Below, one piece after another: positions 2,947-15,185 of a stretch of DNA of 51,369 nucleotides (position 1 is the first letter of the stretch; each line of letters begins with the position of its first letter). The DNA is taken from positions 1-51,369 of the forward strand of contig SCQH01000034.1 in NCBI GenBank assembly GCA_004321925.1, given 5' to 3'. The notes beneath the pieces were generated by a model, which saw nothing but the letters and a program-made list of their open reading frames with translations, was not told the DNA's origin and searched no databases. This DNA comes from Nitrospirota bacterium. Lineage in GTDB: Bacteria > Nitrospirota > Thermodesulfovibrionia > Thermodesulfovibrionales > UBA6898. The translations under genes and the position numbers were made by a program.

Positions 2947-3051
2947 CATCCGGCCCGGCTGATAATAAGCCCGCGCAGGGTGTGCTACTATTATACGAAG
3001 CACAGGCCTGAGTGCAGCTGCATAACGCTCATTAAATCACTGGGGGGGAAC

Positions 3052-3996
3052 ATGACTGATTTTCAAAAAGGGCTGTCTGCTCTTATCGGAAACATCGAAA
3101 AGGTGATAGTCGGCAAAAGGGATGCGGTCGAACTCGCTGTTGCATCACTTCTTTCCCGCGGCCATCTGTTGATAGAGGACGTACCGGGTCTTGGAAAAAC
3201 CATGCTGGCACGGGCGATCGCCGGGTCTCTTGACCTGCGCTTCAAACGTATCCAGTTTACGCCTGACCTCCTGCCCTCTGACGTGACCGGTGTTTCGATC
3301 TACAGTCAGAAGTCCGGGGAGTTTGAATTCAGGTCCGGCCCGGTCTTTACGAACATCCTGCTCGCTGACGAGATTAACAGGGCCACCCCCAGGACCCAGT
3401 CGAGCCTGCTTGAGTGCATGGAGGAGGCCCAGGTCACGGTGGACGGGATGACCTATCCTCTCCCGGCCGTCTTTATGGTCGTCGCAACGCAGAACCCGAT
3501 AGAACTGCAGGGTACGTATCCGCTTCCTGAGGCCCAGCTTGACCGGTTCTTCATGAAGATCGCCATCGGCTATCCTTCTGCCGCGGAGGAGGTCAGGGTC
3601 ATGGAGATGCAGATCAGGGAGCATCCTATCAATTCCATTTCTGCGGTCCTTTCAGATCAGGAGTTAAGGAAGATGCAGGAGGCTGTCTGTAATGTCCATA
3701 TAGACAACGCAGTGAAGGGCTACATTGTTAAAATCGTGAATGCCACCAGAAAGCATGAACACCTTCAACTCGGAGCGAGCCCGAGGGGATCGATAAGCCT
3801 GATGAGGGCTGCGCAGGCCATGGCGCTTATGCGGGGGAAGGATTATGTGGAACCCACCGTGGTCAAGTTGATGGCGGTTCCGGTGCTTGCCCACCGGCTT
3901 ATCGTAAAGCCGCAGTCCCGGCTGCGTGAGATAACCGAGAGGATCGTCCTGGAGGAGATACTGGGCCGCGTCCCTGTCCCGATACAGGGGCAGTAA
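3052..3996 (+). CDS. MoxR-family AAA+ ATPase
   Basis: A 314-residue AAA+ ATPase of the MoxR type, thought to act as a chaperone for maturation of protein complexes together with DUF58/VWA proteins. Walker A is EDVPGLGKT (residues 42-50), Walker B is LLADEINRA, and sensor 1 lies in VVATQNPIE; the C-terminal lid domain carries GASPRGS. The ATG at 3052 follows a TGGGGGGAA ribosome site; an upstream in-frame ATG at 2980 has none and would add 24 residues unlike the family. The gene ends 2 bases before the DUF58 gene, and the MoxR-DUF58-transglutaminase order is a common conserved operon. Confidence 0.93.
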   Translation: MTDFQKGLSALIGNIEKVIVGKRDAVELAVASLLSRGHLLIEDVPGLGKTMLARAIAGSLDLRFKRIQFTPDLLPSDVTGVSIYSQKSGEFEFRSGPVFTNILLADEINRATPRTQSSLLECMEEAQVTVDGMTYPLPAVFMVVATQNPIELQGTYPLPEAQLDRFFMKIAIGYPSAAEEVRVMEMQIREHPINSISAVLSDQELRKMQEAVCNVHIDNAVKGYIVKIVNATRKHEHLQLGASPRGSISLMRAAQAMALMRGKDYVEPTVVKLMAVPVLAHRLIVKPQSRLREITERIVLEEILGRVPVPIQGQ

Positions 3997-11907: not shown

Positions 11908-13470
11908 TTACTTGGCGTACTCGACATACCGGGATTCCCGGATGACCGTCACCTTGATCTGGCCGGGATACGACATCTCGGCCTCGATCTTCTTCGACAG
12001 GTCCCGGGCGATCAGGGACGACATTTCGTCGTTGACCTCCTCGGGCTTGACGATGATCCTGATCTCCCTGCCTGCCTGTATCGCGTAGCACTTCTCGACG
12101 CCCTTGAAGGAGAGGGCCATCTTTTCGAGGTTCTCAAGGCGTTTGAGATAGTGCTCGATGCTCTCACGTCTGACGCCTGGACGTGCTGCCGAAAGGGCGT
12201 CTCCGGCGGCGACCAGCGCTGCCTCGACCGTGATCGGGTCCCCTTCGCCGTGGTGCACCATGATCGCATTGACGACCTTGTTGTTCTCGCCGAACTTCTT
12301 TGCGAGGTTCGCGCCGATCTCCTGGTGCGTGCCCTCGATCTCATGGTCCACGGCCTTCCCGATGTCATGGAGCAGGCCGGCCCGCTTGGCGAGCTTCGGG
12401 TCGACGCCCAGCTCGCTTGCCATCATCCCGGCGAAGTACGCGACCTCGCGCGAATGCTGCAGCACGTTCTGGCCGTATGAGGTCCTGTATTTAAGCCTGC
12501 CGAGGATCTTTATCAGTTCAGGGTGGATGCCGGAGAGGCCGAGGTCGAAGACCGATTTTTCGCCTTCCTCCCTGATATTGATGTCGACCTCCTTCTTCAC
12601 CTTCTCGACGATCTCCTCGATCCGGGTGGGGTGGATCCTGCCGTCGGTGATCAGCCGTTCCAGGGAAAGCCGGGCCACCTCGCGCCTCACCGGGTCGAAC
12701 CCTGAGAGCGTTACCATTTCGGGTGTGTCATCGACGATCAGGTCAACGCCGGTGGCGGCCTCGAGGGCCCTGATGTTCCTTCCCTCCCTGCCGATGATCC
12801 TGCCTTTCATCTCGTCGTTCGGCAGGCTGACCGCCGTGACCGTGGCGTCCGCAACGTAATCGCTCGCATAGCGCTGGATCGCGGAACCGATCACCTCTTT
12901 GGCCTTCTTCTCGGCCGTTTCCTTGGCCTCGTCCTCTACCCTTTTTATGATCTTGGCTACTTCAAAACGCGCCTCTTCTTCGGTGCGCCTGAGCAGTTCC
13001 TGCTTCGCCTCCTCAGCCGTGATGCCGGAGATCCTTTCGAGGACCTCGGCCTGCTCCCTGATGAGCTGTGCATAACGCGCTTCCTTCTCCTGCAGGCCCT
13101 TTTCCTTTGCCGAGTTCTCCTTTTCCTTCCGGGAAAGTTCGTGGTCCCGCTTGTCGATCTGGTCAAACTTCCGCTCGATCGATTCCTCTTTCTGCCTGAG
13201 CCTTTTTTCGAGGTGGTTCAGTTCGGAACGCCTCTCCCTGAGCTCCTTCTCGGCATCGGTCTTTGCCTGGTAGATGATGTCCTTTGCCTCGAGCGCCGCT
13301 TCCTTGCGGAGTGAGTCGGCCTCTTTGAGAGCCCCTTCAGTGATCTTTTTCTTTTCGGTTTCAATAGTACTTTTCTGGCTTTTTAATGCGCTCTTATAAA
13401 CAAGACTTAAGATAAGGCCGGTGATGACACCGGCAGCAACAGCAATCAGTACGTATGTCATATCAAACAT
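11908..13470 (-). CDS. rny: Ribonuclease Y
   Basis: A 520-residue endoribonuclease that initiates mRNA decay at the membrane. It has one N-terminal membrane helix ([19 protein letters not shown]), a long coiled coil of E/K/R-rich repeats (about residues 30-200), a KH domain with [15 protein letters not shown], and an HD domain with [10 protein letters not shown] as the metal-binding catalytic motif. AGGAGGT lies 9 bases before the ATG at 13470. The start lies inside the end of rarA (8-base overlap), and ymdB follows at once. Confidence 0.97.
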
Positions 13471-14740
13471 CTGTTGTGGACCTCCTTTTGTGCAGTCTTG
13501 ATTTTATTATCCGTTCGTATCCTTCTGAGGAAGGGGTGTAAAACGACTTGGGGGTGTTCAGATACTCCTGTTTTACATAGTGATGTTCGAAGTCGTGCGG
13601 GTACTGATATCCGGCGCCTGCCCCGAGCCTTTTTGCTCCTGAATAATGCGCGTCCCTGAGATGCGGGGGCACCTGCTGGAGCGGCTCGGTCCTGATCGCC
13701 CCGAGCGCGTTGTCGATCGCCGCATACGCGGCATTGCTCTTCGGGGCTGCAGCGACATAGAGCGCGGCCTGAGAGAGGGGGATGCGGCCTTCGGGCATGC
13801 CGATCCGCTCGACGGCCATCATTGCCGAGGTGGCAAGCGTAAGCGCCTGGGGGTCGGCATTGCCGACGTCCTCCGACGCGCAGATGACGATCCTCCGTGC
13901 AATGAACAGGGGGTCTTCACCGGATTCGATCATGCGGGCCAGCCAGTAGACCGTTGCATCCGGGTCAGAGCCCCGCATGCTCTTGATGAAGGCGGATATG
14001 GTGTCATAATGGTCGTCCTCATCGTAGTACAGGGACTTGTTCTGCAGGACGTCCTTGATGTGTGCAAGGGTGATCGCATATTTTCCTGAGGCGCTGTCCT
14101 GTGAGGACAGAAAGGCGAGTTCGAGGGTGTTGAGGGCCTTCCGCGCGTCGCCTTCACTGATCGCCGCGATAAAGTCGGCCGCCTCGTCATCCAGGGCCAC
14201 GGCATATTCACCCAGGCCCCGCTTCTCCTGAAGCGCCCTGCGGATGATCGCCTTAAGGCCCTCAGGCGGGATCTTCTGGAACTGAAAGATGAGGGACCGT
14301 GACGAAAGTGCCGGGACGAGGGCAAAGAAGGGGTTTTGTGTGGATGCCCCGATCAGGATCAGTTCGCCTTTTTCGATGTGGGGGAGGAGGGCGTCCTGCT
14401 GGATCTTGTTGAACCGGTGGATCTCATCGATGAAGAGGATGGTCTTTTCGCCCCTGATCGACGAGACAGCATCCCGGATGTCCTTGATGCCGGCGGTCAC
14501 CGCATTTATCGATATGAAATCCGCCCGGGTCTTCCGGGCAATGATATGCGCCAGCGCGGTCTTGCCGGTCCCCGGGGGGCCATAGAAGATGACAGAGACC
14601 ATCTTGTCCTCTTCTATGAGGCGTCTCAGCGGTTTGTGCTGTCCGAGCAGATGCTCCTGGCCGAGGAAATCAGAGAAGTCCTCCGGCTGCATGCGCCAGG
14701 CGAGCGGTGGTGTCCCTTTTTGAACCCTGAATAATTCCAA
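13463..14740 (-). CDS. rarA: Replication-associated recombination protein A (RarA/MgsA), AAA+ ATPase
   Basis: A 425-residue clamp-loader-like AAA+ ATPase acting at stalled replication forks. Motifs: the conserved [18 protein letters not shown] start region, Walker [11 protein letters not shown], Walker [10 protein letters not shown], sensor 1 [10 protein letters not shown], and the C-terminal tetramerisation domain with [13 protein letters not shown]. The start is a TTG at 14740, chosen because relatives have about 17 residues before the RM.P motif; an ATG at 14692 would begin exactly at that motif. No clear ribosome site is seen for either. The gene lies just downstream of the 6S RNA candidate on the same strand. 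Confidence 0.94.
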
Positions 14741-14759
14741 TCAATAGTCCCGGGCCGGA

Positions 14760-15104
14760 CTATGGTCTTTGTGCGGCTTTTGGAAAGGAGAAAACTCGAA
14801 AATTATGAACAGGGTCTTTATATGAATCTATAAAAAGGGCTGCAACGACAGACCTGAATGCACAATGTTCTTCGAACATGATAATTTTCTTTTCCAAAAG
14901 GGCGGGGACCATAGAGACCAGCTTCAAAAAAAATGTTATTAATGAGTTCCCGCCCTGTCGTGTACATGAAAAATCAGATCCGCCTATTTTGATATAGGTG
15001 GGTGCCATAATGCTGCCTTCAGGCTTTTGCCAAAAAGGCAACATGCACACCAGCAGCATACACTGGCTCCCGAAAGATCTAATTTGCCGGATCAACTTTT
15101 TCAT
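14760..15104 (-). CDS. Doubtful 114-codon ORF overlapping the 6S RNA candidate
   Basis: An open frame of 114 codons with an AGGTGAT ribosome-like site before its ATG. I do not recognise the product and see no domain. Its start region and first 50 codons coincide with a well-paired RNA structure (14949-15123), and both the ATG and the ribosome-like site would be buried in the closing stem. I think it is more likely a chance ORF than a gene. Confidence 0.15.
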   Translation of the reverse strand: MKKLIRQIRSFGSQCMLLVCMLPFWQKPEGSIMAPTYIKIGGSDFSCTRQGGNSLITFFLKLVSMVPALLEKKIIMFEEHCAFRSVVAALFIDSYKDPVHNFRVFSFPKAAQRP

Positions 15105-15149
15105 ATATCACCTACAGGGCAGGTAATGAACCTATGACCTGTACTCACT
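14927..15149 (-). ncRNA. ssrS: Candidate 6S RNA
   Basis: The minus-strand RNA can form the three-part 6S architecture. The closing stem pairs 15123-15114 with 14958-14949 (10 pairs, one G-U), 15111-15109 with 14962-14960, 15104-15097 with 14973-14966 (8 pairs) and 15093-15088 with 14982-14977 (6 pairs). A large central bubble follows (15087-15052 on the 5' side) with a small 5-bp hairpin on the 3' side (14998-14983). The terminal stem-loop runs 15051-15001 with a 9-bp helix and an inner GGC-AAAA-GCC loop. The closed part is about 175 nt, the usual 6S size. An extended -10 promoter precedes it (15156-15185) and a U8 tract follows at 14933-14926. 6S RNA binds RNA polymerase and mimics an open promoter. 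Identification rests on hand folding only. Confidence 0.65.
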
Positions 15150-15155
15150 ATATTA

Positions 15156-15185
15156 TTTATACCAGAAGTCCGCAGGTTTGGGCAA
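15156..15185 (-). promoter_or_regulatory. Promoter of the 6S RNA candidate
   Basis: On the minus strand TTGCCC (15185-15180), an 18-base spacer ending in TGG (extended -10), and TATAAA (15161-15156). Predicted start near 15149. Confidence 0.55.

Follow-up and report, generated by a model that had tools for sequence, protein, structure and literature searches.

A 6S RNA gene upstream of rarA in a Nitrospirota bacterium and the open reading frame that overlaps it

Introduction

Upstream of the rarA start, the minus strand of a Nitrospirota contig (SCQH01000034.1, 51,369 nucleotides, here called the window) carries a stretch that folds into a long hairpin and is also crossed by a reading frame of 114 codons. 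Is this stretch a regulatory RNA, a leader of rarA or a protein gene, and could it be more than one of these? An earlier note, made by inspection of the bases, had proposed 6S RNA and had suggested a search with the Rfam model RF00013 and a comparison of related genomes for compensating changes. The 6S RNA mimics a promoter and so holds back RNA polymerase. Among open-licence papers searched by title and abstract, none was on point for 6S RNA in Nitrospira or Thermodesulfovibrio, nor for a 6S RNA that overlaps an ORF or forms part of an rRNA leader. As a gene, 6S RNA is expected here; the one described below adds a member to a known family and is now located in a little-studied phylum.

Results and Discussion

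Identity and fold of the 6S RNA

In the present study, the RF00013 covariance model matched 15128-14943 of the minus strand with 90 bits (E 1.3e-16) against a gathering score of 46.4, and the match covered model positions 1-187, which is the full length of the model. It was the sole Rfam match above threshold in the whole 51 kb window and the only RF00013 match over the cut-off in this genome. In addition, RF00013 matches were present in 60 of 61 relatives and in 159 of the 176 genomes of the order Thermodesulfovibrionales. The earlier note had given a closed length of about 175 nt; the limits set by the covariance model are slightly wider, at 186 nt.

14943-15128, minus strand: predicted 6S RNA (ssrS); RF00013, fold z-score and covariation in 50 orthologues
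14983-14998, minus strand: hairpin on the 3' side of the central bubble, CCUAUAUCAAAAUAGG; fold, with flanking CC/GG pairs in the consensus
15001-15051, minus strand: terminal stem-loop; model alignment, fold and strong covariation

The minimum-energy fold of this segment reached -82.2 kcal/mol, against -50.9 +/- 3.9 kcal/mol for shuffled sequences (z -7.9), and none of the 200 shuffles folded as well. From its base, the closing stem is built of ten pairs, then three, then the helix AUGAAAAA/UUUUUCAU, and then the helix GAUCCG/CGGAUC; beyond it come a bubble, whose 3' side carries a small hairpin, and the terminal stem-loop. The closing-stem helices that had been drawn by hand were all present in the bases, and the minimum-energy fold contained them together with the proposed bubble hairpin (14998-14983) and the proposed terminal stem-loop (15051-15001), the latter with strong covariation. 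Furthermore, an alignment of 50 orthologues from 12 families gave a consensus structure of 37 pairs, 22 of them with compensating changes on both sides, and these changes were located in the closing stem, the GGGAGCC/GGCACCC stem and the terminal hairpin. Fold and consensus together present the 6S architecture, with a long closing stem, an asymmetric bubble and a terminal stem-loop within 186 nt. A chance fold of the region was ruled out by the RF00013 match, the shuffles and the covariation.

The same evidence bears on the view that the region is solely a protein-coding gene with an incidental fold. The overlapping frame is indeed kept open, but three results speak against this view: 22 of the 37 pairs show compensating base changes, the 6S model is matched in full, and 6S orthologues are found in many families in which the frame is closed. 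We regard this view as refuted by the covariation and as having next to no chance of being correct.

The RNA resembles the ssrS of E. coli and the 6S-1 of B. subtilis, both of RF00013, in its closing stem, its terminal stem-loop and its size, and it shares with the family the large 5' central bubble with a 3'-side hairpin, the conserved GGGAGCC/GGCACCC core and the start rule of the product RNA (pRNA). It differs from these two in that the host phylum is Nitrospirota, in that rarA or rny follows immediately downstream, and in that it is overlapped by a frame that is open in relatives.

Predicted pRNA

In the 6S alignment, C39 and C43 were invariant and A44 nearly so, and most positions of GATCC.GCAAATTAGATC were nearly invariant. 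The pRNA start is predicted opposite C43 (15086), which would give 5'-GCCGGAUCAAC... In other 6S RNAs, the pRNA carries GG at positions 4/5 or 5/6 and an A stands just upstream (PMC8414754); the predicted pRNA has GG at 4/5 with an A just upstream and fits this rule.

15086-15105, minus strand: predicted pRNA template; conserved C39, C43 and A44 with the published start rule

Gene neighbourhood and proposed role

13463-14740, minus strand: rarA (mgsA), AAA+ replication-associated recombination protein with a TTG start; Pfam MgsA_C, E 2.5e-69
13470-11908, minus strand: rny, after rarA; Pfam RNase_Y_N
11904-11122, minus strand: ymdB, after rny; YmdB match

The genes tatA and alr also lie near the 6S locus, on the strand opposite to rarA-rny-ymdB. 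The best matches of RarA were from Nitrospirota, with 81% to a groundwater MAG, followed by Thermodesulfovibrio-type and Nitrospirae records. Same-strand rarA and/or rny was found downstream of 6S in 49 of the 50 orthologous loci, the other one being cut by a contig end, and throughout the order Thermodesulfovibrionales the 6S orthologues stand upstream of rarA or rny. In lactic acid bacteria and B. subtilis, 6S loci likewise adjoin rarA, so that the neighbourhood is shared with the Nitrospirota locus; in lactic acid bacteria, however, rarA is upstream of 6S, whereas here 6S comes first and rarA follows on the same strand (PMC8414754).

On the basis of the full-length RF00013 match, the fold z-score, the covariation, the kept gene neighbourhood and the fit of the pRNA start, we identify 15128-14943 of the minus strand as ssrS, the 6S RNA gene of a Nitrospirota (Thermodesulfovibrionales) bacterium, with a probability of about 97% as judged from sequence. 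Two checks suggested in the earlier note, the RF00013 search and the comparison of relatives, came out in favour of the identity that it had proposed.

15156-15164, minus strand: extended -10 TGGTATAAA, presumed ssrS promoter; read from the sequence

The extended -10 had already been pointed out upstream of the RNA and is indeed there, and a similar TATAA-type motif precedes 6S in most family members of the alignment. A weak -35-like TTGCCC is located at 15185-15180, 18 nt upstream of the -10. A generic promoter scan did not list the extended -10 at 15164-15156. At the other end, the U8 tract that had been described just downstream exists as a T8 run at 14933-14926, but the aligned relatives do not share it. 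A conserved terminator was ruled out on this ground; the T8 run is weak evidence for a terminator and does not fix the 3' end.

By homology, the 6S RNA would be transcribed from its own promoter upstream of rarA-rny-ymdB, and its long hairpin with the open central bubble would imitate an open promoter. It would bind the RNA polymerase that carries the housekeeping sigma factor and hold it back as growth slows. During outgrowth, the polymerase would copy a short pRNA from the bubble, starting opposite position 43, and would then be released. We infer the polymerase binding, the pRNA synthesis and the 3' end of the 6S RNA, next to a family identity and a structure that were established here.

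A structured RNA between 6S and rarA

The gap between 6S and rarA is filled by a second conserved RNA structure.

14758-14918, minus strand: conserved four-helix RNA in the 6S-rarA gap, absent from Rfam; alignment and covariation
14916-14907/14767-14758, minus strand: P1 of the gap element
14900-14894/14783-14777, minus strand: P2 of the gap element
14873-14865/14795-14787, minus strand: inner helix of the gap element
14854-14850/14841-14837, minus strand: hairpin of the gap element
14744-14763, minus strand: hairpin AUAGUCC-GGACUAU directly ahead of the rarA start; detected on the opposite strand, and in the alignment

Both-side changes were present in 13 of the 31 pairs of the gap element, with 37 such cells, and none of 500 shuffles scored as high; the covariation signal was destroyed when helix partners were slid against each other. 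A model of the element found one locus in each genome of family f1, adjoining 6S wherever 6S was present, and gave a weaker match in f12; outside f1 and f12 the element is lost. It was also found in the f1 genomes G016 and G010, though no primary 6S was found in them, and the G016 copy begins 116 bases from a contig end. A multi-site riboswitch class was ruled out by the occurrence of one copy per genome, always after 6S, the exceptions being an echo on the reverse strand and two copies close to the ends of contigs. The element had no Rfam match, and a known Rfam family was rejected as its identity: the search gave only a weak RF01988 match (20.6 bits vs a cut-off of 70, E 0.1), which sits at 14680-14716, outside the element. 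The hairpin before rarA and P1 could be alternative structures, because the 5' arm of the hairpin overlaps P1 and the stop codon of the ORF.

Such an arrangement raises the alternative that the 6S structure is itself a cis-acting leader of rarA and not a free 6S RNA, as it stands directly upstream of rarA with further structured RNA in the gap. However, the 6S sequence is equally well kept where rny, not rarA, comes next, and it carries the invariant bubble and terminal stem of its family, while the leader element is separate from it and is lost outside families f1 and f12. We consider a leader in place of 6S RNA very improbable and retain the identification as ssrS.

The overlapping reading frame

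14760-15104, minus strand: 114-codon ORF over 6S, ending 19 nt before the rarA start; ORF list, open in relatives, start codon uncertain

The earlier note had pointed out that this ORF would hide the RNA from gene callers. The ORF exists, but it is not a mere decoy, as it is open past 6S in three families: beyond the 6S end, 57 codons were free of stops in 21 of 22, 13 of 16 and 7 of 7 genomes of these families, vs a chance expectation of 1-7% per genome. The frame was also open in the single f12 genome and closed in most others. The distance from the 6S end to the shared TAG or TAA was a multiple of three in all 22 family members tested, over seven lengths. The spacers from 6S to the next helix, P1, measured 19, 25, 28, 31, 34, 40 and 52 nt, all of them 1 modulo 3, and with one exceptional spacer of 29 nt the frame was restored by a second change downstream. 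In every f1, f5 and f12 genome, and in 11 of 16 f2 genomes, the 6S part had a length that is a multiple of three.

Column-shuffled alignments contained 22 +/- 3.6 in-frame stops vs 3 observed, and the other two frames contained 89 and 51. Since the codon-made alignment behind this shuffle favours the frame, a separate simulation of neutral evolution on the family tree was run. Started from the observed sequences, keeping site rates and ignoring base pairing, it gave 46 +/- 10.7 stops, with a minimum of 18 in 1000 runs, vs the 3 seen. A frame open by chance was ruled out by this simulation and by the modulo-3 indels.

At the level of codons, the pN/pS of the ORF was 0.69 vs 0.83 +/- 0.08 in shuffled columns (14/1000), with 0.68-1.08 in the other frames. 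Its product had no match in Pfam or NCBIfam and gave no confident predicted fold (mean pLDDT 48, pTM 0.21), and the second half of the frame showed no clear protein similarity between families. A known protein and a folded protein were rejected as its product on the first and second of these results. With weak codon-level selection, no protein family and no confident fold, the ORF may be a translated leader rather than the gene of a working protein.

The open frame does not refute the 6S identity, because these bases have independent support for RNA structure and show weak selection at the level of codons. Nevertheless, a reading of the locus as 6S alone is incomplete, because these bases lie in a frame that is kept open. 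An addition to the 6S identity, not a replacement of it, would be that the locus also serves as mRNA. Transcription from the 6S promoter would then also yield a longer RNA, translated through 6S and about 60 further codons to a stop close ahead of rarA. The peptide could be of minor importance; the translating ribosome would unfold the structured leader and then pass on to rarA, which is poorly started (TTG, weak ribosome site), and the cut-out or free 6S would still do its usual work. The stop-free frame in three families, the excess of simulated stops, the modulo-3 spacers, the common stop kept in frame in 22 of 22 members, and an AGGUGA motif like a ribosome site with ATG/GTG in the 5' strand of the closing stem all speak for such translation. 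On the other hand, pN/pS is weakly low and similar in other frames, protein family, confident fold and clear similarity between families are lacking, one family member has an early stop in the frame, and f2 and f5 keep the frame open where the next aligned gene is rny, not rarA, with f5 needing TTG as its start codon. We hold this addition to be a serious but rather unlikely one. Slightly more doubtful still is its extension to several families of Thermodesulfovibrionales, in which 6S would also be the 5' half of a translated leader whose ribosomes cross both 6S and the structured RNA after it and stop just before rarA, tying the production or unfolding of 6S to the next gene.

SgrS/SgrT and RNAIII are small RNAs with two functions, one of them to encode a peptide, and the regulatory RNA described here may likewise be translated. 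Unlike in those cases, translation is putative here, the frame spans most of 6S and continues beyond it, and its peptide is weakly conserved. If the frame is translated, it would be unusual to have an RNA that regulates transcription globally within an mRNA, with two constraints on one sequence. With the open frame and the gap element, the locus is of greater interest than a simple case of missed annotation.

Other 6S-like RNAs

In the same genome, contig 77 (L112:3913-4101) carries a second, divergent 6S-like RNA with a partial RF00013 match of 42.1 bits, below the cut-off, and a TATAAT-type promoter just upstream. Similar copies were found in nearly all genomes of the family; aligned relatives in most of them have in common the GGGAG-core and both a closing and a terminal stem, and some compensating changes were seen. 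Five other families have a corresponding RNA ahead of 16S rRNA: in eight of their genomes (L114, L116, L117, L121, L122, L128, L133 and L148; f4, f5, f7, f8 and f13) it is located 45-128 nt upstream of the 16S rRNA 5' end, one of these loci being in a single-contig genome. Through such a position, an RNA that inhibits polymerase would be coupled to the output of ribosomal RNA.

Directly after the second 6S-like RNA stands a conserved CTGGAGCCATA... stretch (L112:4090-4200, and at the same place in L115-L150), which in L112 can pair with TGGCTC before a T-rich tail. Longer 6S matches, of 235-249 nt, were observed in G043, G089, G099, G100, G102 and G137; in these and in L131 the 6S RNA is about 50-65 nt above the usual length, and the extra sequence of the L131 6S (3015-3263) is located in the terminal stem-loop. 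A third 6S-like type, in which GGATGC or GGAAGC replaces GGGAGC, was seen in L134, L138, L147 and L149; it is possibly carried on mobile elements, and in L138 and L147 it is near tRNA genes.
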